Below, in pieces: positions 17,909-48,538 of a DNA stretch of 64,000 bases. How positions within the stretch are numbered: the stretch's first letter is position 1; every line of letters starts with the position of its first letter. The notes under the pieces are model-generated. The model was not told the origin of the DNA, ran no database searches, and was given only the letters and a program-made list of their open reading frames with translations. Source of the DNA: Thalassotalea sp. 42_200_T64 (lineage in GTDB: Bacteria > Pseudomonadota > Gammaproteobacteria > Enterobacterales > Alteromonadaceae); contig MABC01000079.1 of the NCBI GenBank assembly GCA_002162925.1, positions 1 to 64,000 of the forward strand, written 5' to 3'. Position numbers and translations under genes: made by a program.

Positions 17909-18265
17909 ATGATTAACAGCAAATTAACTTTAACTACTGGCGCACTAGTTATCGCATCTTCATTATTTTTATCAAGCTCTATACAAGCAGCTGGTATGTC
18001 TAGCTATATGGAAAATGCATTAATAGACGTGTGTAAAGCCGCGAAATCCAACAATACTATTCGTTTCAGTTACACGGTCAAAAGCTATCGTTTAAAAACA
18101 CAAACGGTGGCACTAAAAGTGGTATGTAATGGTGAAAATATTTCAGAATTTGCCGCCAACCACGGTGCCAATAAAACGGCAGATCGCTTAAACGAAGCCC
18201 TTGGTGATGTGAGCATTGAAGATGTGGCGTTAAACGATTCTGAAAAACTGTACGTTAACTTTTAA
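17909..18265 (+). CDS. Exported DUF3718 family protein
   Basis: The 118-residue protein starts with a cleavable signal peptide ending SSSIQAAG, so it should be periplasmic. The mature part has two cysteines (DVCKAAKS and KVVCNGEN), which could form a disulfide, and matches DUF3718, a family I know mainly from Alteromonadales. Function is unknown. AAAGGAAAG precedes the ATG. A strong terminator follows, so it is a single-gene unit. Confidence 0.82.
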   Translation: MINSKLTLTTGALVIASSLFLSSSIQAAGMSSYMENALIDVCKAAKSNNTIRFSYTVKSYRLKTQTVALKVVCNGENISEFAANHGANKTADRLNEALGDVSIEDVALNDSEKLYVNF

Positions 18266-18274
18266 TCTTTAAAA

Positions 18275-18311
18275 GTTAGAAAGTTAGAAAGTTAGAAAGT
18301 TAGAAAGTTAA
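18275..18311 (+). repeat. 8-bp tandem repeat GTTAGAAA x4
   Basis: Four head-to-tail copies of GTTAGAAA and a partial fifth lie between the DUF3718 stop and its terminator. They are non-coding and would be in the 3' end of the mRNA. Copy number may vary by slippage. Confidence 0.85.
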
Positions 18312-31439: not shown

Positions 31440-32114
31440 ATGGACATAGATAAAAGCATTCAGATAACACCTAAATCTAAACGTAACGGCCTGTTTTTGA
31501 TAGTCTTGGGGGTTATCCTATTACTGTCCTCATTTGCCCTTAACAATTTGTTTTGGGATCAGTTTAAACTACAGCTTATGCTGCTGATGTTCAGTTGTTT
31601 CATTATACTTTTGCTCGGGTTCGGCAAATATAGTGAACCTAATATCAGCTACAACATCGGCAAAGATACGATAACGTTTCATCATAGGTTCGGCAGCTGG
31701 CAAATTAACTGGCAAGACATTATTAGCCTGGGTGAAGTTAAAGCAAATAATGGATTAACTGTTTTTGGCTTGCCATATATTGGTATTAAACTCAATAAAT
31801 TGGATAATATTGCCAGTCATATTTCCCCCAGGCTTGCCAATAAGTTGCTTCATGAACAACAAGAATTAATTCGCCTGGCGGTTGAATATGAAGAGATCAG
31901 CAGTGCTCAGGCGATAATAAATTTTTCACCTTATCCACTTGCGGATAAAATAATAAAAGGCCCTGTTGCCGCCTGGTTACATCGAACGGAGGTATTGGCT
32001 ATCGCCTACGGTTATCATTTATTTTTGGCTGAAGATAGCTTCGATCAAGAATTGATGAATTTTCTATCCTTGTTAAAAAATTGTCAGCACTATGTTAAGC
32101 AGAACACGGGTTAG
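31440..32114 (+). CDS. DUF2982 family membrane protein
   Basis: The 224-residue protein has two adjacent membrane helices (~17-35 and ~43-62) and then a soluble beta-rich domain with FHHRFGSWQINWQDIISLG, resembling a PH-like fold. It fits DUF2982, a gammaproteobacterial family of unknown role. No good ribosome site is visible, because the palindromic repeat occupies that place. Its last 20 bases overlap the end of the convergent sigma-54 activator gene. Confidence 0.75.
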   Translation: MDIDKSIQITPKSKRNGLFLIVLGVILLLSSFALNNLFWDQFKLQLMLLMFSCFIILLLGFGKYSEPNISYNIGKDTITFHHRFGSWQINWQDIISLGEVKANNGLTVFGLPYIGIKLNKLDNIASHISPRLANKLLHEQQELIRLAVEYEEISSAQAIINFSPYPLADKIIKGPVAAWLHRTEVLAIAYGYHLFLAEDSFDQELMNFLSLLKNCQHYVKQNTG

Positions 32115-35100
32115 TTAACAATCTTCTTAACGTGGGCGCTGAAACATCGAGTAACCGGCTCGAGAGTTTAACGGCCAAACGTTCGGTATTACAGGCATTG
32201 GCCAAAATTGTTTGCATCATTTGTATTTTTGATTGTCCGCTATCAATTTTGATAATCTGGTTTGCAAACCGTTTGGCTAATTCTGTAACCGTTAAATTTT
32301 GTGGCGCAGCCACTGATTGCAATTTTTTCCATCGCCGGCGAAACGTACTTTCCGCAATATTTAACTGATTGGCCGCCTGTATCGCCACTTGCTGGTTATT
32401 TTCAAGACAGTGTTGATACAACAAAAGTTCGATCCAGGGGGATATTGCCAATGAGTGAAGATGGTTATCTGCCGCAATGGAAGCTGTGATGAGCTGACTT
32501 GCTAACCGTAACGTTTGTTCACTGGCGTTAACCTTATTGTGCTCATCCTGATTATTGATAATATTTTCAGAGTTCAAAATGGCCGGTTGATACATCGCTC
32601 TAACATCTGGTTTATTGACAACAGGGTAATTGTTAGTTGTAGAAGCTACCGATGCTTCTGAGTTAATAAGAGATTGTTCTGCTTGTTTAACAGAGCTCGG
32701 ATATAAAGCTAAATGTTTACATTGCAGCAATTCTTCATTACATACAATTATCGCTCGATGGACCAGGTTTTTTAGTTCACGAATGTTTCCTGGCCACTGA
32801 TAATCGACTAACGCCAGTTTTGCCTGATGGCTAAAATCATTAATCAGCTTATTATATTCATCGGCAAATACCTTTAAATAAGATTGAGCGATCAACAATA
32901 TGTCACTTTTTCGGTGTCTTAATGGGATATTTTTCAAATTGAACACATTTAACCGATAATAAAGATCTTCCCTAAATTTTCCCATCTTGATCTGTTGTTG
33001 TAAATCAACATTCGTTGCCGCGATGAGTCGGACATCGACTTTTTTATATTTACCACTGCCGATGGGTGAATATTGTTTTTCTTGCACGAAGCGCAGTAGT
33101 TTTACCTGCATTTCTATTGGTAACTCACCGATTTCATCAAGAAACAAGGTGCCACCATCAGCTCGCTGAACACAGCCAGCGACGTTTTTTTCAGCCCCGG
33201 TAAAAGCACCTTTTGTATGACCAAATAACTCACTTTCAATTAAGTTCTCTACCACGGCACCACAGTCAAATATAATGAAAGGTTTGTCTTTTCTTCGACT
33301 TGCCAAATGAATACTTTTCGCTAACATCTCCTTTCCGGTGCCAGATTCGCCAGTAATGAGCACAGTAGCATTGGTCGGAGCCACCATAGCAACCTCAGCC
33401 ATTAACTGTTCCATCTCGAAAGACTGGTACCAAAAATCAAGCTGATTATTGGCCATAGCCACTGGTGGTTTATGATTAGCAAACTGTTCTATTTTTACGC
33501 CAACATAATTACCAATATTATATAACGTGTGTTTATCTCTTACCTGTATCGAGTCATCTTGTTTGGTCTTTAGCCATAAAAAATATTTACTTGACAAGTT
33601 TGCCTTAATGGGCAAGATAAGTTCGATACCACTATCATTTAACACCGATGTAAATATCTGATTTTCTGTTACTTTCCGGTTTCCTGTCTGAGAAATTTGG
33701 GAGATAAAGTCTAATTGGTTTTGGGAGAATACAATCGCTTCAGCTAACAAATTAGGTTCTTTATGATCGGTTGCCTGTAGTAACTTTATCTTGTCATTGT
33801 CAATTTCAAAGATGGCGGCATCGTCTAACTCAAAACCATTCATAAGTTGTTGTAATAGCGCTAAATAAAATGCCTGCGATTGCTCAATCTCATCCAGATA
33901 ATTTAAAATACTCCATTGCATTAGCATTTTTTGATAATCACTTATACCGGTTTTGCTGACATTACCACTTAGTCTGTCTAAATTTCCAATTTGTAACATG
34001 GTGTTTACTTGTTGCCATTGTCTAGTTTGAGCACCACCGAGATCTCTGGCTTGTGATAAAGAAAAATTGGCATAATAAAACAATTCTACCGGCGAATAGC
34101 ATTTTTGTTCACTATTTACCGAAACTCCAACACTAAACGGTAATTTAATCTTTTCATCAAAAAACTGATACTCCGATAGATTTTTATGGAGTTTACCAAC
34201 AATGTTATTGATCTGCTCAGCCGAACTTTCAGCAAACATAATCATAAACATGGTGCCGCCATAATGTGAGGAAAGATCCGTTGGCCTGACGAAATCTCGA
34301 ATTAATTCACCTATGGCATAAAGCAACTTGTCACCAAATTCTCGACCAAACCTGAGGTTTATTTGGTCAAAATAATCTGGAGATAATAATAAAATTCCGG
34401 AAACAGCACTTTGTTTAAACGATTTACCCTGACCTTTCGACGGTAAACCCAGTGCTTTCGGTATTTTGTCCAAACTGCTTAATTGTCTTAAGATTAACAC
34501 CACACCATCAATGCCATTTGGATATTTGATTGGGGCGATAATTCCGTCGACCAATTGACTCGAGTCGTCTGTGGTTTGAATAGCAATAGGTTGGATTTTA
34601 GTTACGGTTTGTACTTTGATAGCGGTAGCGATAAATTGTTGCGTTAGTTTGCTCGACATATCTGGCCTGATCTTCAGCACAGTATACCAGGGCTTAGCAC
34701 GAACCTCAGCTTCGTCAGCAGCAAACAGCCGTTGCGCAGTATCATTTAAGGTGTTGATATTTCCTTGTTGATCAAGATAAATAAGTACATCACCAATACA
34801 AGATACAGTATTAGTTAATAAATCATTTTGATGACTGTGTTGGCGGCGAACATGCAATTTATAAAGAGCCATTTGCAAGCTGTTGTGCAATTGCTCTTTC
34901 GATGACGGCCAGTGTATTTCATCATAATCACATGGTGGATTTAGCAAAGCGTTGGCGTTTAAGTCATGATAAGGGCCAAAATTAACAAACACTACGCCCA
35001 CATTGAGTAAGGTGCAAAGTTGCTGTTTGCTATAACCAGGCGGTATTAACTCGTTATCAATACAAACTAAGTGGTAATCAGCATAGGCTTTGCTTTCAAT

Positions 35101-35223
35101 AAGCCTTTGCACATTATTCTGATAAAAATCGACTTTGATATTTTCACCAGTAAGATAAACACGGAACTCATCAACTGACAAATTTTGGCTAACCAGCAAA
35201 AGCTGGGATTGATTATTACCCAT
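32095..35223 (-). CDS. Sigma-54 activator with PAS, degenerate GGDEF, GAF-like and AAA+ domains
   Basis: Domains of this 1042-residue protein in order: a receiver-like N-terminal region without clear phosphoacceptor motifs (~1-110); PAS (~130-255); a GGDEF-type domain (~265-400) whose active site reads YGGTMF instead of GGDEF, while RPTD eight residues before it aligns with the RxxD inhibitory site; a GAF-like region (~420-585); a sigma-54 AAA+ domain (~600-835) with Walker A GESGTGKEM, GAFTGA and LFLDEIGELP; and a Fis-like helix-turn-helix (~945-972, AANQLNIAESTFRRRWKKL). GAFTGA shows it should contact sigma-54 RNA polymerase. It cannot make c-di-GMP but may bind it. It overlaps the REC-GGDEF-EAL gene by 8 bases. 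Confidence 0.9.
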   Translation of the reverse strand: MGNNQSQLLLVSQNLSVDEFRVYLTGENIKVDFYQNNVQRLIESKAYADYHLVCIDNELIPPGYSKQQLCTLLNVGVVFVNFGPYHDLNANALLNPPCDYDEIHWPSSKEQLHNSLQMALYKLHVRRQHSHQNDLLTNTVSCIGDVLIYLDQQGNINTLNDTAQRLFAADEAEVRAKPWYTVLKIRPDMSSKLTQQFIATAIKVQTVTKIQPIAIQTTDDSSQLVDGIIAPIKYPNGIDGVVLILRQLSSLDKIPKALGLPSKGQGKSFKQSAVSGILLLSPDYFDQINLRFGREFGDKLLYAIGELIRDFVRPTDLSSHYGGTMFMIMFAESSAEQINNIVGKLHKNLSEYQFFDEKIKLPFSVGVSVNSEQKCYSPVELFYYANFSLSQARDLGGAQTRQWQQVNTMLQIGNLDRLSGNVSKTGISDYQKMLMQWSILNYLDEIEQSQAFYLALLQQLMNGFELDDAAIFEIDNDKIKLLQATDHKEPNLLAEAIVFSQNQLDFISQISQTGNRKVTENQIFTSVLNDSGIELILPIKANLSSKYFLWLKTKQDDSIQVRDKHTLYNIGNYVGVKIEQFANHKPPVAMANNQLDFWYQSFEMEQLMAEVAMVAPTNATVLITGESGTGKEMLAKSIHLASRRKDKPFIIFDCGAVVENLIESELFGHTKGAFTGAEKNVAGCVQRADGGTLFLDEIGELPIEMQVKLLRFVQEKQYSPIGSGKYKKVDVRLIAATNVDLQQQIKMGKFREDLYYRLNVFNLKNIPLRHRKSDILLIAQSYLKVFADEYNKLINDFSHQAKLALVDYQWPGNIRELKNLVHRAIIVCNEELLQCKHLALYPSSVKQAEQSLINSEASVASTTNNYPVVNKPDVRAMYQPAILNSENIINNQDEHNKVNASEQTLRLASQLITASIAADNHLHSLAISPWIELLLYQHCLENNQQVAIQAANQLNIAESTFRRRWKKLQSVAAPQNLTVTELAKRFANQIIKIDSGQSKIQMMQTILANACNTERLAVKLSSRLLDVSAPTLRRLLTNPCSA

Positions 35224-37009
35224 TGAAAAACGTCACTGTGTTTTCATCTTTTGTCATCACCACGTTTTTCGTTAACAGTTTCTCAAAATCAGCCGCAACT
35301 AATGGTCGACTAAACAGGTATCCCTGAATCAATGAACAATTAAAACCTTGCAATATTTGCAACTGGGAAGTGGTTTCAACCCCTTCAGCGATGACACTTA
35401 GGTGTAACTTATCGGCTAAAGCAATAATTGCTTTTACAATAGCGGCATCATCGCTGCTTTTTGCAATGTCAGAGATGAATGAGCGATCGATTTTTAACGT
35501 GGTAATTGGAAATTTTTTCAAATAACTCAGTGATGAATAACCGGTGCCAAAATCATCGACAGCAATGCCAACCCCTAAGGCTTTAATTTGTTGCAGCCTT
35601 AAAATATTTTCTTCAACGTCGGTCATGATCGCGCTTTCTGTCAGTTCCAGTTCTAGCAAATTAGCCGGCAAGCCGGTTTGCTCTAAGACATTTTGCACCA
35701 CGCCAACCAGCGAACCGCGTTTGAATTGTATAGAAGATAAATTTATCGACATTCGACACGGCGGATAACCAGCATCTAACCAGGATTTCGCTTGTGCACA
35801 AGCCTGTTTAAGAACCCATTCACCAATTTCAATGATCAGGCCGGTTTCTTCGGCAATAGGAATAAAATCAGCCGGACTCACAAAACCTAATTCAGGATTT
35901 TGCCAGCGTAGCAAGGCTTCAACGCCAACAATTTTTTTCGATTTTACGTCCACTTGTGGTTGATAATTTAGACTAAACTCATTATTTTCTAACGCTTTTC
36001 GTAAATTTTGTTCTATTTGTAATCGCTCAATGGCACGATTATTTAATGATTCTGAATAAAACTTAAAACATTGTCGCCCCATTTCTTTAGCATGGTACAT
36101 GGCAACATCCGCATTCTTCATCAAGTTGCTCACATTTCGACCATCATCGGGATAAACAGAGATGCCTATGCTTGGGGTTACGGTCACTTCATATTGATCA
36201 ATTTTAATCGGTTGTGACACCGAATCAATGATACGTTGCGCAACTACAGCGATGTCATCGACACAGTCAACCCGGCTTAAAAACACGGTAAATTCATCAC
36301 CGCCTAAGCGTGCGACAGCAGTATTCGGCACATCTTCCTGGCCTCTGGCGAGCAGATCACAATTACGCAGGTTACTATTTAACACCTTGGCAATTTGTTG
36401 TAATACCCGATCACCAAAATTATGACCTAAGGTGTCGTTAATTCGTTTAAATCGATCCAAATCAATGAACAGCACGCCAACATGGTAGTTGCCACGGTCG
36501 GCAAGAGTTAAAAATTTTTGCAAGTGTTCATTAAAGCTTTCACGATTGGCAAGCCCGGTTAAACTGTCATGATAAGCCAAATATTGAAGTCGCTCTTGTG
36601 AGTTTTTCAACTCCCGAAGAGCATCCCTGCTACGTAACATATATTTGACTCTATGGGTGATCATCGGCCAGCGAATGGGTTTTGGTAAGAAGTCTGTGGC
36701 GCCAATTTCATAAGCTTGTAAAATTGATTGATAATCATCTGCACCGGTTACCATCAAAATGGGGATATCTTTACCGGTTTTGTGGGCCCGTATTTGTTGA
36801 CACACTTCATAGCCACTTAACCCTGGCATCTCAACATCAAGCAACACAATATCAGGTTGCATAGTGACGTATTTCACCCATGCAGTATCACCATCCGCGG
36901 CTTCTATCACTTCAAAGCCCGAGGCTTCTAAAGTATCACGCATCAGCATTAAATATGTAGGGTCATCATCACAAATTAACACTTTAGCGTTATCAATAGC
37001 TATATTCAT
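35216..37009 (-). CDS. REC-GGDEF-EAL response regulator (c-di-GMP turnover)
   Basis: The 597-residue protein has a receiver (~8-125, phosphoacceptor in IVLLDVEMPGLSG), a GGDEF domain (~170-335, intact RLGGDEFTVFL) and an EAL domain (~345-590). The EAL set is complete: VEALLRW, SINLSSIQF, ELTESAIM, VDDFGTGYSSL, IAEGVET. Both synthase and phosphodiesterase motifs therefore look usable. An 11-residue insert separates the RNCD motif from GGDEF, so product inhibition through that site may be altered. It starts within the last 4 bases of the propeller kinase gene and is its obvious phosphorelay partner. Confidence 0.94.
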   Translation of the reverse strand: MNIAIDNAKVLICDDDPTYLMLMRDTLEASGFEVIEAADGDTAWVKYVTMQPDIVLLDVEMPGLSGYEVCQQIRAHKTGKDIPILMVTGADDYQSILQAYEIGATDFLPKPIRWPMITHRVKYMLRSRDALRELKNSQERLQYLAYHDSLTGLANRESFNEHLQKFLTLADRGNYHVGVLFIDLDRFKRINDTLGHNFGDRVLQQIAKVLNSNLRNCDLLARGQEDVPNTAVARLGGDEFTVFLSRVDCVDDIAVVAQRIIDSVSQPIKIDQYEVTVTPSIGISVYPDDGRNVSNLMKNADVAMYHAKEMGRQCFKFYSESLNNRAIERLQIEQNLRKALENNEFSLNYQPQVDVKSKKIVGVEALLRWQNPELGFVSPADFIPIAEETGLIIEIGEWVLKQACAQAKSWLDAGYPPCRMSINLSSIQFKRGSLVGVVQNVLEQTGLPANLLELELTESAIMTDVEENILRLQQIKALGVGIAVDDFGTGYSSLSYLKKFPITTLKIDRSFISDIAKSSDDAAIVKAIIALADKLHLSVIAEGVETTSQLQILQGFNCSLIQGYLFSRPLVAADFEKLLTKNVVMTKDENTVTFFNG

Positions 37010-40000
37010 ACAACCTCTCTAGCAATATCTTCTAATAAGACTATGGTTTCCTGGTAAATAATATCCATTTTAGTGGCCAAAGAGTGACATTCATCTTGCG
37101 AGCCTTTTAGTGCACCTTGCTCTAGTAAAACACTCAAATTACTCAACTCTTTTGCGCCTACATTCGCACAAAGCGATTTCATCGCATGCGCGATTCTTTT
37201 TACATTGTCACTGTCATTATCATTATTGGCGAGGCTAACTTTTAAACTGTTCGATTTTTTAACATACTCCAGTTTAAACGTTTCCAGAACACGAGAATAT
37301 ATCGCCCGGTTGGTGACCTTTTCAATTTCTCTGATAGCATCAATCGCAACCGTATCAATTAAACAATCAAATTTACTCTCTGCTGAGTATTCGTGCGGCT
37401 CTTTCGGTTGCTCAGTGGCTTCGAATGAACAGAGCGCATGATCAATCTCAGTCAACTCCGTTGACTTCACAATTAAATGGTTTAAGTATTTTTTCAGAAC
37501 CGACAATAACACATTGGTGGTTAACGGTTTATAAATGTAGCTATTCATCCCCGCCGTAATGCAGTCTTTTTCGTATCCTAAGCCCACGCCAGCAGTTAAT
37601 GCCACAATTGGTGTAGCTTTTAATTTCTGTTGATGCTGCCATTTACGGATCATTTGGCTGGCTTTAAAGCCATCCATCACCGGCATCTGACAATCCATAA
37701 AGATAAGATCATAGTGATTGTGCTGAACTTTTTCTATCGCTATCACCCCATTGCTGGCTATTTCAACTTCACAACCAAATAATTGCAACATCGCGGTTGC
37801 CACTTCCTGGTTCGTCTCGGAATCTTCAACCAAAAGAATGTGCGCCTTAAATTCTTCAACGTCCAACACTAGAGGTAAAGCTTTGTGTTTATCAGAACTG
37901 CAATCACCGGTTAAGCAATCTTCAAGTAATTCAAGCAGAGCTTGCGATCTTAATGGCTTGTCAATACTACGAGCGGCGGCTATTAAATCGACATTCTCTC
38001 CGCTATTAGCCATAATAATGACATTACCAACATGGTGACTGAGTTGTTTATAGATGTGGGTTTGCTTGAGCATTTCGGCATCAACCAAATATAACGCAGA
38101 ACGGTTGTCATTTGAATCAACTTCGATGTTTGTTTGAGCGCTGATATCTTTATAATTCACCTTAATGCGTTGTAAGGTATTAATCGCCATTCTATTGATA
38201 TATTGATTAGTCGCGAGAATATAAACCGTTGCATCAATATGCTTTGCTGGCAAGGCAGCAGCATCAACAGCTGCCAACGGTAAAGTTACCGTAAAAGTAG
38301 AGCCTGAACCAGGGGTTGAAACCACACTAATATTACCGGACATGATTTCAACAAGCTTTTTGGTAATGGCCAAACCCAGCCCGGTACCACCGTACTTGCG
38401 GGTTGTTGAATTGTCTTCTTGTTGAAACACTTGAAAAATTTTACTTTGATTTAGCGTACTAATGCCAATACCAGTATCGCTAACTTCGATGATCAATTCA
38501 TTGTTAACAGATGTCGCCGTTAATTCAATATGACCAGTTTCGGTGAACTTAATCGCATTACCCAATAAGTTAGAGATCACTTGTTTAATCCTTAATGGAT
38601 CTGCATTGATCATTTCGGCGCAAACAACATCGATATATAAGGTAAGTTCGACCCCTTTACTGTGCGCTCGATTGGCAAATAAGAAACTGACTTCTTCGAG
38701 TAGATGATGAATATTAAAACGTTGTTGTTCTAATTCAGTTTTATCGGCTTCCATTTTAGAAAAATCTAAAATGTCATTAATTAGCTCTAATAACATTTCC
38801 CCCGCATTTTGTACTGAAGTGACAAAATGGTTTTGACTTCGGTTTAATCCCGTTTTTAACAATAAATCACTCATGCCAATAATACTGTTCATTGGCGTAC
38901 GGATCTCGTGACTCATGGTCGCCAAAAAGTTCGCTTTGGTATTAGCCGCTTTTTCAGCGAGTACTTTTGCCGAATGGGTTTCCACCACAGCCAGTTCTAA
39001 AGCCGCATTCGCGGTTTGCAACTCTTTCGTTCTCAGGTTCACTTCTGCTTTTAATTGCTCTTGATAAGCAATTTGTTTCTGTAATTTTATCTGCTGATTA
39101 CGATGAATAAAATACGCCATAAGCAGTATTATTGCCAGATAGAAAAGATACGCTGGCCAACTTAACCAAAGCGGAGGCGTGACTTCAATGGCAAGGCTTA
39201 ATTCGTCTTCACTCCATTGGCCATCATTATTACTTCCTCTTACCCGAAATATATAGTTTCCATGTGGCAAGCTACTGAACGTGGTGCGATTAATATTGCC
39301 GGAATCAATCCACTGGGTATTAAACCCTTGCATCATATATTGATACTTGTTGTTTTCTGGTTTGGTGTAATCGAGTGCTGCAAATTCAAATTCTAGAAAA
39401 GAATCTGAATGTTCCAGTTGTAACACGCCATCATTTCTAAACATTTTATGGATGGCAACCGGCTGATTGAATTTTGAAAACTTCGTTAACCTCAATGGCG
39501 GCTGATTTTGATTAATCGGCACATTATCGTGCATAAAAGTATTAAAGCCATTAGCCCCTCCAAAATATATTCGACCTTTTTTCGATTTATAATATGCCCC
39601 AGCGTTAAAATCATTACCTTGTAAACCATGGGTTTTATTGAAGTTATTAATCGACAAATCTATCGGTGAAATTCGGCTTAAGCCACGGGTATGACTTAGC
39701 CAGATAAAGCCAGCTTCATCTTCTACGATGCCGTAACCTACGTTACTGGGTAATCCCTGATTAATGCCCACATGCTCAAAATGCACAATGCCCAGTTCAA
39801 ATTCACTTCGGCTTATGCGCGAAATACCAAAATCTTCGGTGGCAATCCAAATATAATCACTGGTACTGAGTAAACTGACCACATTATTGCTGGCAATTGA
39901 ATCCTTATTATTATCATCCACCATGAAACGAGTGTTGTTACCGGTGGCGAGATTGAACCGGTTTATGCCGCCACCTCGGGTAGCAATCCATAATATTTGT

Positions 40001-41592
40001 TTGTTTTCCTGGACAATATCGATGACTTTGTTGCTTGAAATAGAGTTCGCATCTTGCTCATCATGCATGATTCGCAAAATATTACCGTTTTGAATAAGGT
40101 TTAATCCGCCGCCAAACGTGGCAACGGCTAAAACACCATTTTCAAGTTCAATAATTTTGCTAACCGCATTACTACTTAAAGAATTAAGGTTATCAACCTG
40201 ATGTTTAAAAACGGTAAATGTTGAATTTCCCTTTTGTTTAAAGTGCAATCCTGAACCGTATGTGCCAAGCCAAAGGTTATCTTCACTATCGAATAACAGA
40301 CTCATTACCCGATCATCTTGTAAGGCAGTAGGATCATTTTTATCTGCCTGAATAATGTTGATTTTACCCGTGGCAGCTTCAATAATATTAAGGCCTCCGC
40401 CCCAAGTGCCAACATAAACATTACCAGCAGAATCTTCGGTTATTGCGGCGATCACATTAGAGGATAAACCATTATCAGCGTCAAAGTTTTTACTCACGTG
40501 GGTAAAAGGAGTCAACTCAGCATTCCAGCGACTAATCCCAGAAAATGTCCCAACCCACATCACTCCACCGCTATCTTGATAAAGAGAAATCACTCGGTCA
40601 TCAATTAAACTATTCACTCTGGCATTATTGCGATTATGGCGGATAAAGCTTTGTTTGTATGATTCAAATTGACAAAGCCCATTGTCAGTGGCAAACCATA
40701 TTATGCCCTTACTGTCTTGATAAATGTCACGAACATAGTTTGAACAAAGACTGGTGTTATCATGTTCTTGGTAAGTGAATGATTTACTTACCCCGGTTTG
40801 TAAATCAAATTGAAATACACCGGAATCTTCTGTTGCCACCCAGAATACATGTTGCTGATCTTCAAAAATGGTTTGTATTTTATTGGTGGGAATTGAAATG
40901 TCGGTGGTAGTGGTAAAGGCTTGAAAATGATCTTGGCCGGCCAATTTAACCCGTAAACCACTTTTTTCCGTTGCTACCCACAAGTTTTGTTTACTATCAA
41001 AAATCAAATCAAAAATAGATTCGCTACTCAAATCTGCAACAGTTGTGAAATTTGATGTGGTAACATCTAATGTAGAAATGCCTTTATCTCGGCTACCAAA
41101 CCAGAGTGAGCCATTGATATCTTCGGCCACCGCTCGATATTTATTACCTAAAATCCCTTTAAATTGGCCTTTATTATTAAAATTTTGGAACGCATCTATT
41201 TCTGGTAAATACAGACTGATGCCGCCATTACCTAACACCCACAAGCGTTCTTCTGAATCGACAAAAATTTTGTAGACCCAAGTGCTTGCCAAACTATTGG
41301 AATCACCTTGAATATGGGTATAGATCTTTGAAGATATGCCGTCGAAACGATTAAGACCATTTTGATTGCCAAGCCAAATAAAACCCATTTTATCTTGTAC
41401 TATGGTATTTACGGCTGGATGAGAAAGAATTTCAACATCATCCAAATTAGTGAATTGTAATTGACTATTATCGTTTAGGTTTAAAGAATTGCTACTTACT
41501 TTAGCGTGAGTGGAAAAGCCGACAATGGTAATTAAAAGTAAGAAAATCAGTGTTATAAGAAGTTGCTGATACTGGATTTTTTTCAAAGGCAT
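37006..41592 (-). CDS. Beta-propeller hybrid histidine kinase with REC and Hpt
   Basis: This 1528-residue sensor has a signal anchor (~10-30), a long periplasmic region of two-component-regulator propeller repeats (~50-690; recurrent units such as [19 protein letters not shown]), a Y_Y_Y domain (~700-805), a membrane helix (~809-831), HisKA with [12 protein letters not shown] (His ~895), HATPase ([17 protein letters not shown]), a poorly conserved receiver-like part (~1135-1240), REC (~1270-1390, [12 protein letters not shown], Asp ~1300) and Hpt with [11 protein letters not shown] (His ~1469). It is laid out like Bacteroidetes polysaccharide HTCS sensors but ends in Hpt, not AraC. First gene of a three-gene overlapping set. 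Confidence 0.93.
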
Positions 41593-41690: not shown

Positions 41691-41732
41691 AAAAAAAGCG
41701 CTTTGATAAGCGCTTTGATAAGCGCTTTTTAA
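41691..41732 (-). terminator. Terminator of the S8 protease gene
   Basis: Three AAGCGCTT palindromes spaced by TGATA lie 61 bases beyond the protease stop on the minus strand. Any two can pair, and the last one is followed by seven T residues on that strand. Confidence 0.7.
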
Positions 41733-41792: not shown

Positions 41793-43694
41793 TTATTGTT
41801 GTTCGACCCAATTATTGATAAAACTTACCGAGTTCATTTTAGTACTGCCGTCGGTAAAGAGATTTGCATCGGGCCATAAGTGCGCATCTTCCCAGATTTT
41901 AGCATCTCCCCATAACTTCGAGTCAGGCCATAAATGAGCGTCAGGCCATAAGTGAGCATCTGGCCATAAATGGGCATCAGGCCATAAATGAGCGTCAGGC
42001 CATAAGTGAGCGTCAGGCCATAAGTGAGCATCTGGCCATAAGTGAGCATCTGGCCATAAGTGAGCATCTGGCCATAAGTGAGCATCTGGCCATAAGTGAG
42101 CATCTGGCCATAAGTGAGCATCTGGCCATAAGTGAGCATCTGGCCATAAATGTGCATCAGGCCATAAATGAGCATCAGGCCACAAGTGAGCTTCGTTATA
42201 AACACCATCCCACTCTAAACCTTCAAAACCTAACACATAAAAATTACCATTATCGGCATATCTACGTGCTGAACCGGCATAATGCTGAGAGTCATTTAAC
42301 TCATTAGCGATATCCATTCCTTGATTAGCACAATCTACATTATCACTTTCAACAGCCCAGGTGGCGTTGATCATTCCCGCGCCCTGCTGAAAGATACTGT
42401 AGGATAACTCTTCATTATTAGTGCCTCGAAGGGCTGATGAAATTAAGCGACACTTAATATCATCAGGGCTTAAATTTGGTTGCTGCTGCAACATTAGTGC
42501 GGCGACCCCACTGGCAACGGCTGTTGATTGCGAAGTACCCGATAGTAAGAAATAACGACCACCATCGGCGTACTGAGGGTAATCTTTATAAATTTTAGAT
42601 GACTTGGCCATCAACCCTTGCATATGACCACCAGGGGCGACGAGTTCAGGCTTTAAAAATCCTTCAACGGTAGGACCTGCACTTGAGAATGAGGCAATAA
42701 AATCATCATTAAGATTATAAGGGGTATAGTTATCTGAAGTCGCGCCAATAGTGATCACATACGGGTTATTGCCAGGTACGCCGATAGACATGGCGTCAGA
42801 GCCGGTATTACCCGCGGAAGCAAAAACGGTGATCCCTTCTTGCCAGGCAACCATTAACGCCTGATTGATTGGGTCTTGCCAATAAAACGATTGCGGCTTA
42901 GCACTAAAAGACAAATTTAACACTTTGATATTGAACTGTTCACGATGATTAACCACGTATTCAATGGCTTTTAGTACACGGCTATAAGTAGAGTGGCCAT
43001 TTTTGTCAAATGCCTTCACTACCGTTAACTCAACGTCAGGAGCAACACCATTAAAGGAAGCAACCTCTTCACCGTTACTATTGTAGGTAGATGAGCTGTT
43101 GGCAATAAGGCTGGTGATGTGGCTACCATGGCCATATTTATCTTTTTTTGCCTCCGACCCTTTAATCACACTATGATAATGAACTTTACGTTTTTCACCA
43201 TAGGTATCTTTTTTAATCTCTTTAAATTTAGCTAAACCACTATCAATAATGGCAACCCCTACGCCTTTACCTGTGATCCCTTGGGTGTGTAGCTGACTGG
43301 CTCCAACTTGTGTGGGGAAATAAGTATCCCGCTCAGCAGCAAGCTCGCGGTCCTGTTCAATATCATGATGTTTTTGCTTACCCTTTTTCGCACTCAGAGT
43401 TACCGCTTCATCGGAAAACATACGGATCATCGGATGTTTACTCTGCACCATGGCAACTTGCTTTGAGGTAAGTAACGCTGATATAGCCTGGATCACGGTA
43501 TATTTGTGAACCACTTCACCACCAACAGATTCGATAGCAGAAACCAGTGTAGGTTTACTCGCCCCTTGCACTATATACGAAGCTTTGCGTTGCGATTCGC
43601 TGCCTTGAGTGAAAAGAGCCACTACTAGCATTAGCAGCAAGGGGAAAAGCGCAGGCTTTAATATTGTTATGTTTTTAAACGATTTACTGGTCAT
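41793..43694 (-). CDS. Secreted S8 (subtilisin-like) protease with C-terminal AHLWPD repeats
   Basis: The protein has a signal peptide (~10-35), an I9-like propeptide (~38-105), and a subtilisin domain with the full triad: Asp151 in VAIIDSGLA, His189 in GHGSHITS and Ser388 in LSGTSQSTAV. After ~505 comes a tail of 15 exact AHLWPD hexads, four decayed ones (SKLWGD, AKIWED, AHLWPD, ANLFTD) and ~20 residues more. S8 proteases with Trp-rich hexad tails are known in other bacteria, but their role is unclear. ATG at 43694 is chosen because GGTGA precedes it; a TTG 12 bases upstream is possible. A terminator follows, so it is a separate unit from the kinase gene. Confidence 0.92.
   Translation of the reverse strand: MTSKSFKNITILKPALFPLLLMLVVALFTQGSESQRKASYIVQGASKPTLVSAIESVGGEVVHKYTVIQAISALLTSKQVAMVQSKHPMIRMFSDEAVTLSAKKGKQKHHDIEQDRELAAERDTYFPTQVGASQLHTQGITGKGVGVAIIDSGLAKFKEIKKDTYGEKRKVHYHSVIKGSEAKKDKYGHGSHITSLIANSSSTYNSNGEEVASFNGVAPDVELTVVKAFDKNGHSTYSRVLKAIEYVVNHREQFNIKVLNLSFSAKPQSFYWQDPINQALMVAWQEGITVFASAGNTGSDAMSIGVPGNNPYVITIGATSDNYTPYNLNDDFIASFSSAGPTVEGFLKPELVAPGGHMQGLMAKSSKIYKDYPQYADGGRYFLLSGTSQSTAVASGVAALMLQQQPNLSPDDIKCRLISSALRGTNNEELSYSIFQQGAGMINATWAVESDNVDCANQGMDIANELNDSQHYAGSARRYADNGNFYVLGFEGLEWDGVYNEAHLWPDAHLWPDAHLWPDAHLWPDAHLWPDAHLWPDAHLWPDAHLWPDAHLWPDAHLWPDAHLWPDAHLWPDAHLWPDAHLWPDAHLWPDSKLWGDAKIWEDAHLWPDANLFTDGSTKMNSVSFINNWVEQQ
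41922..42191 (-). repeat. 15 tandem 18-bp units encoding AHLWPD
   Basis: Fifteen contiguous 18-base units, 270 bases in all, encode exactly the same hexapeptide. They differ only at synonymous positions (GCT/GCC/GCA, CAC/CAT, TTA/TTG, GAT/GAC), so selection holds the peptide sequence. A second frame also stays open through the repeat, which is a side effect of the period. Confidence 0.95.
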
Positions 43695-44020
43695 TATTTT
43701 CACCAATGATTATTATTGTAATTTTATTAAAGCGAAAACCGTGCCAAAACAACAATTTAACTACAGATCCCCGATATCAAGGCTTTTCCGTAGTTAATTA
43801 AAATTGTCACAATTTGCCAAGAAAATAATGGCGAAAACATATGGCGAATAAATGTCATGACACAAAACAAATGGCGCGCCATTTTTTTGTCGTGTAAAAA
43901 ATGGCGTTTTATTTTGCAAACCCTCTATCCACCTTCTCTGGCCGAGAGGTTAAGTACATCCTTGTGCAAATCAGGTGTTTATACCATTCATGGTAATTCT
44001 GTATAAGTTCATCCCTGAAC

Positions 44021-45650: not shown

Positions 45651-47123
45651 TTAGTTAAACGTTCCGCGAACACCAACAGAGTAACGTGCACCAGTCTCGG
45701 TAATATCTAAGTATTGGTTTGAATACTTCGCCGTAGTGGTATAAAGCTCGTTGGTAACATTGATGCCTTCAAAGAAAATAGTGAAATTTTCATTGATGTC
45801 ATAACTGCCACTGATATCCACTTGTTCATAATCATCGACATAATGACCATCGCGCCATGAACGCGGTTTCGATTGCATGAAGCGATCACGCTTGTTGTAA
45901 GTCACCCGGAATTGAATTTTATCTTTTTCATAGAATAAAATTAAGTTAGACGAGTCACCCAAACCAATAAGCGGCAACGACTGACCTTCTTCATCTGCGG
46001 TTGATTCACTATCCACAAAGGTTTTGTTAGCAATAAAACCTAAGCCATCAAATGGCGCCGGCAAGCTGGTGAACATATGTTGCAGGGCAATTTCATAACC
46101 TTCAATATCGGCTTGATCTGAGTTGACCAGGCGAGAAATTCTGTAGTTATAGCTGCCGCTTGGTACGGTGACCACTTCTTCCACTTCTTCAGATGCTAAG
46201 TAACCATCGACATCTTTAGTAAACATGGCAACGGCCGCATAACTGCCTTCGTCATAATACCACTCGAGGGCAAGATCTAAATTATCAGATTCAAATGGCA
46301 TCAACTTAGGGTTAGGACCCCAACCGCTTAAGTTATCAACATCACCACCGTAACCCGACTCTGGTGACATTGCATCCAGTTCTGGGCGAGTCATACTCTT
46401 TGAATAAGCAAAACGTGCAATCAAATCATCAACAATTTCGATTTTGGCATTGATACTTGGTAACCAATTATCGTAGGTATGCTTGACCGTAATTGGGGTA
46501 TAATCATCACCCTCAATAACATTAACAAAGCCCGGCTTCGACGTTGAGGGCTCCAAATCTAATAATGGGATAGCAAAACCTTTCGCCGTACTGGTGGTTT
46601 CGACATAACGAATACCGGTGGTAATTGACCATGGCATGTCGGCTAGCTCACCATCAAAATAGAAATCGGCATAAAGCGCTGTTAACTCTTCATTGATTTC
46701 ATAGGTCCATGGCACTTGATGCATGGTAAAGCCATCATTTTCATCGATCAGTTGCTGAGTGTATTCAGGGTCATCCATTTGCGCCACAACCTCTGTAGAG
46801 GTTAAATAGTCGAAAAAATCTTCAGAATTAAAGGTTAACCAGGATTGTTCTGGTGAGCCACTGCCACCTGATAAAAAGCCATCCGCATCATAGGTAGTGA
46901 ACATACTTTCCGGTAACCAAATGGGGTTACTGTTATCACCCCACAACCAGAGCATAGGGCGAGTGGTTCTTTTTCTTTTACTCGATAACGTACGATCGGA
47001 GATCATCGCACCCAAACCAATTTTTGCCAAAGCGCCGTGATCGACCGTCCATAGGCTATCCACTTTTACTTCCATCACGTCATCTTTGCGCACCGAGCCA
47101 AAACGTTCTCCCCAGCCCGCTTT
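45651..47123 (-). pseudogene. TonB receptor barrel fragment (C-terminal)
   Basis: This frame runs in the same phase as the middle fragment, directly after its TAA, starting KAGWGERFGSVRKDD. It carries the last two thirds of the barrel with clear alternating strands, and a TonB_dep_Rec-like end (SYDINENFTIFFEGINVTN). It has no start signal of its own. Confidence 0.8.
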
Positions 47124-47910
47124 TTAGCCAGCAGTAGAGTTACTGCGATCGAAGGTTAATTCCGGTAATTGCGCGCCTGAACTAAGATCATAGTTATAAT
47201 CACCTGGGCGTGAAGCTACGGTATCGGTAGACCCTTGCTTTGGATCTGACTCCGCTTCCGAATAACTTAAGTCAAAATTAAGGTTTAAATCATCAAGTAC
47301 ATCCCAATCTGCATTAAAACCGAACGCGATTAATTCATTACTCGTCGATGATTGGCGTACCATGACATCGCTGTTACTGCCCTTGCCCATCGAGAGTTTC
47401 ACCAGGGTGCCGTTTTCGTCTAATTCAACATCGGTTAACTGCCTTTTGGTAAACCAATGGGCTAAAATATCTTGACGGTAATCAACATCATATTTCGAAT
47501 ATAAAGCATCGGCAGTAAAAGTTAGGCTATCAGATGGTTGGTATTGAAAAACTGCGGTGCCGCCAGTACGAGTACGCTCTTCGGTTTGGGCGATTTGATC
47601 ATAGTTTTGTGGAAAGTAGACATCCTCGTAATAGGTCTCATCATCCATGGTTAAATCGGTATGCCTGTAGTAAGCCGTATTCGCTGAATCGTAGCGACTT
47701 TTACGCTCATTACGAGCAAATGAAACTAACACGCCAAATTTATCGTCATCAAAGGTATTACTGCTCAACCCTGAAAATCGTGGCTTAGTGTCGCCGGTCA
47801 TCTCATCGTATTGGGCTTTAACACTTGCCGTTGCTTTAAAGCCAGGAATATCAAAAGGCTTAAACGTAGTAACATTCACCGTTGCGCCAATTGCGCCTTC
47901 TTGTAATTGG
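47124..47910 (-). pseudogene. TonB receptor plug-to-barrel fragment (middle)
   Basis: Begins after the frameshift with SAQLQEG-equivalent sequence and continues GATVNVTTFKPFDIPGFKA, the usual plug-barrel junction of this class. It ends at the nonsense codon in NSTAG-stop-KAGWG. Confidence 0.8.
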
Positions 47911-48361
47911 CCGACTGTGTTTTATGCACTTCTGCACCACTGATTAATTCAGATGCCATAATATCAAAACTGAATGCTTGGCCACCGCTAGTGGTCGCGA
48001 GAGTACGACGATTAAGTAATACCGAGGTAAATTCAGGTCCCATGCCACGTACGGTAATTAATTGCCCTTCGCCACCCTTTCTGTCTATCGATACCCCGGT
48101 GATGCGTTGCAGAGACTCGGCAACGTTTTGATCTGGAAATTTACCAATATCTTCGGCGGTAATGGCATCAACCACGGTACCCGAATCCATTTTGATATCT
48201 TGAGATTTAATCAAGCTGCGACGAATACCGCTTATGGTGATGACTTCAACTTCTTCCTCATTTTCATCCTGACTCGTTACTTCTTCTGCATTGATTGCAG
48301 TCGAAATGCCTAAGTTAAGCATGATGAGCATAGATAAATAATTAAGTTTTGATTTTTTCAT
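47876..48361 (-). pseudogene. TonB receptor signal peptide and plug fragment (N-terminal)
   Basis: It contains the signal peptide (to INAEEV), a TonB-box-like stretch EVITISGIRRSL and most of the plug. After KTQSA the frame is lost and 10 unrelated residues follow before the stop. Confidence 0.82.
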
Positions 48362-48538
48362 ATTTATTTCCCCTTGCAAATAAGCCTTTCATGTTGAATT
48401 TTATTAATATTAAACCGTTTTTTAATCGACCATCAGATATTTTATTGTATAAATTGCAATTGCAACCTTTATAATATAAGTAACCACATAAATACCTTTT
48501 ATACACAAGGCTTGTGCAACTGAAAATATTTTATATTT

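Follow-up and report, generated by a model that had tools for sequence, protein, structure and literature searches.

A tandem hexapeptide tail on a subtilase as a candidate ligand of the adjacent beta-propeller sensor in Thalassotalea and related bacteria

Introduction

In Thalassotalea sp. 42_200_T64, a gene for a peptidase of the S8 (subtilase) family ends in a long run of the hexapeptide AHLWPD, and lies beside a sensor operon. This arrangement raises the question of why so many units should be kept alike within one protein, and of what such a tail may be doing next to a sensor. To our knowledge, the ligands of the Reg_prop sensors found outside the gut Bacteroides are largely open. The locus is described here within a window of 64,000 nucleotides, that is, the whole stretch of DNA analyzed (assembly GCA_002162925.1, contig MABC01000079.1, positions 1 to 64,000), for which an initial annotation had been made from the letters of the sequence.

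The Protease and the Neighboring Sensor Operon

The S8 protein is laid out as an N-terminal hydrophobic segment, a prodomain-like unit, a catalytic domain, and the repeat tail (Table 1). The catalytic domain matches PF00082 over residues 146-431 (E 9e-47; 160.2 bits against a cut-off of 21.8). Residues D155, H193, N300, and S392, which we take to be the catalytic Asp and His, the oxyanion Asn, and the catalytic Ser, respectively, are invariant across 18 aligned members, and this invariance fits an active enzyme. The prodomain-like unit was called from the predicted secondary structure, and the AlphaFold model is confident both there and in the catalytic domain; the Pfam prodomain family I9 was found below its cut-off, and in two relatives only. 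The hydrophobic segment and the prodomain-like unit fit export, in agreement with the initial description of the protease as secreted. At the extreme C-terminus, W633, V634, and Q636 are kept in at least 90% of 26 sequences.

Table 1. Positions of the subtilase gene, its repeat tail, and the neighboring sensor operon in the window.
Feature	Position	Strand	Remarks
Regulator with GGDEF and sigma-54 activator domains	32095..35223	-	Next gene after the response regulator
Response regulator with receiver, GGDEF, and EAL domains	35216..37009	-	Overlaps the end of the kinase gene by 4 bases
Hybrid histidine kinase	37006..41592	-	1528 aa; candidate receptor for the tail
2.8 perfect copies of AAGCGCTTTGAT	41696..41728	.	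Forms a terminator-like stem in the S8-kinase intergenic gap
S8 peptidase (subtilase) ORF	41793..43706	-	TTG start, 637 aa; PF00082 match
S8 peptidase, alternative ATG start at 43694	41793-43694	-	633 aa; start used in the initial annotation
Conserved C-terminal end, NWVEQQ and stop	41793..41813	-	Family consensus NxWVEQE
Four further hexads, SKLWGD, AKIWED, AHLWPD, ANLFTD	41850..41921	-	C-terminal of the block
Isolated AHLWPD, 16th exact unit	41868-41885	-	In orthologs, the species-specific letters of the array are found here
15 tandem exact AHLWPD units, residues 506-595	41922..42191	-	Uninterrupted block

The hybrid kinase combines a propeller ectodomain (11 Reg_prop stretches; residues 43-806, approximately) with Y_Y_Y, HisKA, HATPase_c, receiver, and Hpt domains, with Reg_prop, Y_Y_Y, HisKA, HATPase_c, and the receiver each over the Pfam cut-off. 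The receiver and Hpt form its C-terminus, and no DNA-binding output domain is present among the families found. Among proteins of known structure, those nearest to the ectodomain are sensor kinases (PDB 4a2l, E 4.9e-88). The stop of the S8 gene is separated from the kinase start by approximately 200 bp, and given the terminator-like stem in this gap, the two genes may not be simply co-transcribed.

Elsewhere in the window, a TonB-dependent-receptor-like gene, recognized by eye (45651-48379, minus strand), is apparently split into the ORFs 45651-47093, 47124-47879, and 47876-48379, the first of which has a whole-length match of 89% identity in a related genome (L041). A perfect 8-bp tandem repeat, AAAGTTAG (4.9 copies, 18272-18310), is found just past the ORF 17909-18265.

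Variation within the Array

Tandem Repeats Finder returned a period of 18, with 18.1 copies and a score of 421, and the 15 exact units first reported for the protein are indeed present at 41922-42191. Four hexads do follow the block, as had also been described, but one of those listed as degenerate is a perfect AHLWPD. In the host's own genome (3.62 Mb in 94 contigs, 87% complete), a 36-base pattern of two hexads matched nowhere but in the window array.

The 15 units are encoded by seven DNA versions (pS 0.55, pN 0), and all 19 in-register hexads of the window give a pS of 0.54 and a pN of 0.13. Across six genomes of the genus, pS ranges from 0.19 to 0.55 in the uninterrupted blocks of 11-15 units, and pN is 0 in five of these blocks and 0.013 in the sixth; when the degenerate hexads are included, pN is 0.13-0.27, against a pS of 0.29-0.54. 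The pN of 0 in these blocks is partly built in, given that a block is defined by its own identity, and in a wider table of 12 arrays the units were chosen by peptide, so that the pN of 0 in 9 of the 12 is weaker evidence, being partly built in as well. As 11-15 consecutive copies are alike while their synonymous sites vary, the pattern points to purifying selection on the repeat peptide, the reading already given in the initial annotation, which the contrast between pS and pN bears out for this identity-defined block. The array had further been held to be not merely a fresh expansion of the DNA. The synonymous variation across the block agrees with this, but six consecutive central units are identical in their DNA, and recent duplication is therefore present too. 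Sequencing noise is an unlikely source of the synonymous variation, since single-contig relatives have a matching pattern.

The isolated distal unit has the letters of its species' array, with codons that are partly its own. In the window, it uses GCG and CCC, which are found in no unit of the 15-unit block, and in three relatives its His is encoded by CAT, while in two of their arrays CAC is the His codon of 11 of 11 and of 10 of 11 units. The natural reading of this unit is selection on the peptide, beyond homogenization of the DNA, although an old conversion followed by drift may also account for it.

The Tail across the Family

In seven relatives of the genus (membership as assigned by the search tool), the arrays are AHLWPN, AHLWPQ, AHLWPN, AHVWPQ (with AHLWPQ as the first unit), AHLWPD, GHLWPDDEIGA., and GNLWPNKGIGTN. 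Thalassotalea sp. ND16A is a named relative, with an S8 of 86% protein identity. Named genomes were scanned with an alignment of 18 sequences, and 78 loci were kept from the best 80 of 459 confirmed stretches. These loci come from records of the Gammaproteobacteria and its groups, the Acidobacteriota, and the Chloroflexota, many of them MAGs.

A set of 164 distinct SGTSQ tails free of N runs was assembled from the window, family genomes, and named loci. The commonest spacing between Trp residues is 6 in 114 of these tails, 11 in 20, 12 in 17, and 13-17 in eight, with 94 distinct consensus hexamers among 159 tails, and a common core of [DEN][GAS]-x-[LIVM]-W. The units are alike inside one protein, and the unit switches throughout the array between species; this switching, together with arrays that are alike in protein but varied at synonymous sites, may be regarded as established at the level of the sequence. 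In a Halieaceae record (L205), F takes the place that W holds in the other tails. Fewer than five Trp residues are found in 5 of the 164 tails, which are short, contig-truncated, divergent, or F/Y-substituted, and relatives devoid of the repeats, which the initial annotation had set against its own reading, were not seen among the 164. The tail apparently marks a family of SGTSQ subtilases undescribed so far, with no description of the family, or of its pairing with propellers, being found in searches of the open-access literature.

The initial annotation had also suggested a repeated structure or a carbohydrate- or wall-binding surface. The AlphaFold model has a pLDDT below 50 over the tail (residues 499-637; 26-sequence alignment), with no confident repeated fold, and no carbohydrate- or wall-binding family was over its cut-off in the Pfam scans of the window S8 and its relatives. 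A regular solenoid is disfavored by this low pLDDT and the varied spacings. One fixed coil is disfavored by the alternation of two spacer lengths inside one protein (L053), together with the range of the commonest Trp spacings across the tails (6, 11, 12, 13, 14, 16, and 17). A regular fold retains some probability, as the tail of one relative (L095) matched Pentapeptide_3 with an E of 0.00036, below the family cut-off. Histidine-rich metal binding, raised by a sub-threshold match to a Plasmodium HRP, was discarded, His being present in the units of few relatives.

A short signature, G-x-phi-W, is common to the tails and the propeller blades. Where Trp follows a hydrophobic residue, Gly occupies position -3 for 51% of such Trp residues in propeller blades, 44% in tails, and 7% in the ORFs of control loci. 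A Pfam Reg_prop match was found neither in the tails of six relatives (E up to 10) nor in the window protein (E up to 1), and letter-level mimicry of the partner's own blades was rejected, with a match at four positions no better than that to the blades of other sensors. Given these two results, the imitation of a blade strand by the tail is no more than a possibility. An electrostatic fit between tail and propeller was rejected as well, with no charge correlation or complementarity in 72 pairs.

Pairing with Propeller Sensors

All seven genus orthologs share one gene order, with the hybrid kinase after the S8 gene and the receiver-GGDEF-EAL gene after the kinase. The pairing was surveyed in 158 distinct SGTSQ S8s with at least six tail Trp residues, for which some 3 kb of upstream sequence was often all that was available. 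A propeller sensor (Reg_prop/Y_Y_Y) lies within 600 bp downstream on the same strand in 76 of the 158, and elsewhere within 8 kb in 30 more, while 32 have no propeller in the available sequence, and 20 have none and less than 3 kb left downstream. This represents 106 of 138 evaluable loci, or 106 of 158 if the 20 short-flank loci are counted as misses. By comparison, a propeller sensor was found, over a range of about 8 kb, at none of 18 S8 loci of the SGTSM type, taken as controls from the same bacterial family. The importance first attached to the neighboring sensor is thus reinforced by the recurrence of this link through the family.

The part shared by the partner sensors is Reg_prop plus Y_Y_Y, and their outputs differ, being a hybrid kinase, GGDEF, or GGDEF-EAL. 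Propeller partners were seen in records of the Proteobacteria (Gammaproteobacteria) and Acidobacteriota. Two of the three Chloroflexota loci end less than 2.5 kb from the S8; at the third (L213), the adjacent gene has propeller repeats of another kind. Among 15 genomes that have a tail-bearing S8 but no nearby sensor, Reg_prop is found elsewhere in 13, and nowhere in two.

The host's own genome has Reg_prop at three loci, two of which adjoin tail-bearing S8s. The paralogous sensor (L060, 2480-5665, minus strand; 1062 aa) has Reg_prop and Y_Y_Y and no recognized output domain, with a kinase-like ORF nearby on the opposite strand; a second S8-family ORF (L060, 7644-9515, minus strand; 624 aa) adjoins the paralogous tail-bearing S8. 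The remaining locus (L277, 7149-9450, plus strand) has two ORFs in succession, of 360 and 405 aa, with no S8 match in the stretch. At some loci (L111, L121, L122, L123), tandem S8 ORFs, up to five of them at L121, are found near one or two propeller sensors, with tails that differ (GYVWAD, GYLWAD, GSIWNE, GSMWNE); among the named genomes, L121 corresponds to L220, from Thalassomonas sp. RHCl1.

Joint Diversification of Tail and Propeller

A total of 102 adjacent S8-sensor pairs, delimited by TM-based landmarks, were reduced to 35 disjoint closest pairs of loci, 18 with a switched unit and 17 with the same unit. The S8s left out were 94 without an adjacent sensor, 14 duplicates, three with too few Trp units, and three with unclear TM. 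Loci were compared when their sensor lengths were within 120 aa and their S8-catalytic identity was 70-99.5%, and the starts of Y_Y_Y and of the tail are estimates.

In these 35 pairs, a switched unit goes with a propeller identity 7.0 points lower, given the S8-catalytic, Y_Y_Y, and output identities (p 0.0018). The effect is absent in the prodomain (p 0.48), Y_Y_Y (p 0.49), and output (p 0.84) of the same pairs, and S8-catalytic identity is also lower in the switched pairs (-4.0, p 0.004). The propeller effect holds in rank regression (p 0.006), ranges from -8.8 to -5.1 when pairs are left out one at a time, and is negative in 98.7% of 300 random matchings of pairs. It falls to -3.8 (p 0.02) without two mosaics, and to -2.1 (p 0.10) without four. 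The ratio of propeller to catalytic dN does not differ between same-unit and switched pairs (2.73 vs. 2.38, first 28 of the 35 pairs), which discards a generally faster evolution of the propeller in the latter. Given the shrinkage without mosaics and the unchanged dN ratio, the joint signal reflects mainly block replacement.

Mosaics, in which the propeller is at least 20 points below both the S8 and Y_Y_Y, were counted in 139 comparisons of 58 loci with an S8-catalytic identity of at least 85%, which are not independent. Divergence restricted to the propeller is found in 43 of 95 switched-unit comparisons, against none of 44 same-unit ones. In 42 of the 43 mosaics the units differ by at least two residues, and one-residue switches are mosaic in 1 of 33 cases. 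One mosaic is a GGDEF-EAL pair (L159/L168) and the rest involve sensors of about 1060-1100 aa, with none in the hybrid-kinase class. Over all comparisons, the effect is -1.8 in this class, to which the window kinase belongs (70 comparisons), and -10.6 among the sensors of about 1060 aa (777 comparisons).

Breakpoints were taken for 12 hand-chosen pairs, five of them mosaics from the 43. In these five, the S8 breakpoint lies within 28 aa of the tail start, and the sensor breakpoint falls within 2 aa of the estimated start of Y_Y_Y in three, 44 aa away in one, and inside the propeller in one. At one GMLWKT locus (L296), the propeller is nearest to those of two GMLWKT loci (73% and 72%) and has 59% identity to that of a GLLWKV locus (L127), while its S8 is nearest to those of GLLWKV loci (91% and 89%).

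In partial Mantel tests, tail and propeller are correlated in 66 loci (r 0.113, p 0.0035) and in the 26 hybrid-kinase loci (r 0.334, p 0.0005), while tail and Y_Y_Y are not at the 0.05 level (p 0.85 and 0.066, respectively). The tail is also correlated with the output (r 0.154 and 0.274). The nearest neighbor by propeller shares the tail unit in 28 of the 66 loci, against 26 by S8, and in 9 against 7 of the 26. Four close same-genus pairs from the window's class, each with a switched unit and thus with no same-unit pair for contrast, have 66-79% identity in the first propeller, 93-96% in Y_Y_Y, and 91-94% in the S8-catalytic domain. Between two genomes in which the window system changes its unit from D to N, the identities are 90% for the S8, 78% for the propeller, and 94% for Y_Y_Y; in the paralogous system of the same genomes, with RLIWKT unchanged, they are 97%, 92%, and 96%. 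As a counterexample, RLIWKT is kept in one case while the propeller drops to 65% (S8 88%, Y_Y_Y 78%). Read from sequence comparison, the joint diversification of tail and propeller is apparent between species, if weak in the window's class, and the recurrent propeller adjacency with varying output can be considered established.

A Candidate Ligand and Its Rivals

The joint diversification suggests that the ligand of the sensor is the tail itself, or is carried by it, rather than the polysaccharide supposed in the initial annotation. We give an even chance to the tail being, or carrying, the ligand of the adjacent propeller sensor, in a specificity cassette comparable to ComX/ComP, and hold the estimate at this level because the strong mosaics all fall outside the window's sensor class. 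The exported protease would present its C-terminal tail, predicted to be disordered, as a multi-copy ligand, either attached to the enzyme or cut into identical short peptides. The double beta-propeller of the adjacent sensor would recognize this ligand on the outer side of the inner membrane, and its binding would set the phosphorelay or c-di-GMP output. Tail and propeller would then form a cassette set between conserved protease and signaling bodies, changing gradually or by exchange of the whole block, with a possible role in self-recognition.

A number of results count against the ligand reading. These include the dependence of the effect on mosaics and its weakness in the window's class, the 32 of 138 loci with no nearby propeller, the two genomes with no Reg_prop at all, the several S8s with different tails near one or two sensors, the lack of charge complementarity and of own-blade letter matches, and the terminator-like stem. 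The barely higher nearest-neighbor sharing, the correlation of tail with output, the unchanged dN ratio, the lower S8-catalytic identity of switched pairs, the rarity of one-residue mosaics, and the RLIWKT counterexample weigh in the same direction. The reading is weakened further by the adjacency of tail and propeller DNA, given that one recombination event could swap both irrespective of binding.

The main rivals are the linked replacement of neighboring DNA and a shared third ligand. In the first, adjacent and fast-changing tail and propeller sequences are replaced together, while the sensor merely regulates the protease and the tail has some other job, such as anchoring or assembly. The short gap between the S8 stop and the kinase start, the large share of the signal carried by the mosaics, and the correlation of the tail with the output domain all favor this linkage. 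However, replaced propellers are absent from the 44 same-unit comparisons (not independent), even though the propeller is a far larger target than the tail, and four of the five hand-chosen mosaics have their sensor breakpoint close to the estimated junction of propeller and Y_Y_Y. The prodomain and Y_Y_Y show no effect, and linkage leaves the recurrence of the gene pair in distant genera unexplained. This rival is considered unlikely.

It is less probable still that tail and propeller both bind one variable molecule, a polysaccharide, for example, and diverge together as this molecule changes. In its favor, the ectodomain is nearest in structure databases to sensor kinases such as 4a2l, whose class is known in Bacteroides to sense polysaccharides, and regularly placed Trp residues could stack on sugars. 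Against this, the Pfam scans returned no carbohydrate-binding family over its cut-off, the strict identity of the units seems beyond the needs of a stacking surface, and tails ranging from strongly acidic to near-neutral pair with one sensor type.

A docking array, by which the tail would tether the protease to the propeller while signaling holds or releases the enzyme, as in LapD/LapG, seems very unlikely, even though, like the Lap system, the locus couples a protease with c-di-GMP proteins, and the tail is predicted to be disordered; the present data fit docking and signaling alike. Most improbable is a role of the tail as precursor to ribosomal peptides whose Trp residues are crosslinked by a radical SAM enzyme. 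In favor of this rival, the repeated W-x-[DN] triads (W-x-D here) resemble known crosslinking sites, and the host genome has two SPASM matches on other contigs, for which its probability was raised slightly. Against it, SPASM is lacking in the remaining 14 of the 15 genomes of the genus, including single-contig tail carriers, and of 10 scanned neighbors of related tail S8s, one (L167) is a radical SAM protein.

Returning to the tail as ligand, the locus may, in its widest and rather doubtful form, represent a new kind of bacterial self-signaling, in which a subtilase carries the ligand of its own receptor as near-identical units that mimic a blade strand and are read by the adjacent double-propeller sensor, with array and propeller diversifying into species-specific, perhaps strain-specific, channels that feed c-di-GMP and phosphorelay outputs. 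Should the ligand be the tail of the adjacent protease, many Reg_prop sensors would become directly testable, since the peptide can be read from the genome, synthesized, and added. The system would then provide a self-made, specificity-coded signaling channel in Gram-negative bacteria, and a clear natural case of units kept alike while the whole array switches.

Comparison with Known Systems

In LapD/LapG, the protease family and the ectodomain differ from the S8 and propeller described here. The common feature is a periplasmic protease coupled to c-di-GMP signaling (PMC3032553, PMC4359373). LapD signals from inside to outside, unlike the tail-propeller cassette proposed here.

In the precursors of the yeast alpha-factor and of other multi-copy peptides, a single exported protein likewise contains the same short peptide several times. 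Unlike the alpha-factor precursor, the window array has no spacer or dibasic site between its units, and is fused to a protease.

The window kinase resembles the sensor kinases 4a2l and 3v9f in its double-propeller ectodomain and Y_Y_Y, but differs in having a receiver and Hpt as its output, with a separate receiver-GGDEF-EAL protein, and in the gene for a tail-bearing protease alongside. The Bacteroides HTCS have a DNA-binding output domain in the same protein, which the window kinase lacks.

A close parallel in arrangement is provided by the ComQXPA system of Bacillus, in which the ligand and sensor-kinase genes are adjacent on one strand, in a highly polymorphic locus (PMC4008528). Here too the genes are same-strand neighbors, with 76 of the 138 evaluable tail-bearing S8s directly followed by a propeller sensor. 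Between species, tail and propeller diverge in two sensor classes, but weakly in that of the window, so that a likeness in divergence is uncertain. The candidate ligand differs in being a repeat array on a subtilase, and the sensor ectodomain in being a beta-propeller; ComQXPA has types within a species, with impaired cross-talk, whereas the present comparison is between species only. By analogy, the tail-propeller cassette would work like ComQXPA, a likeness that lies in arrangement, and perhaps in divergence, rather than in membership of that system.
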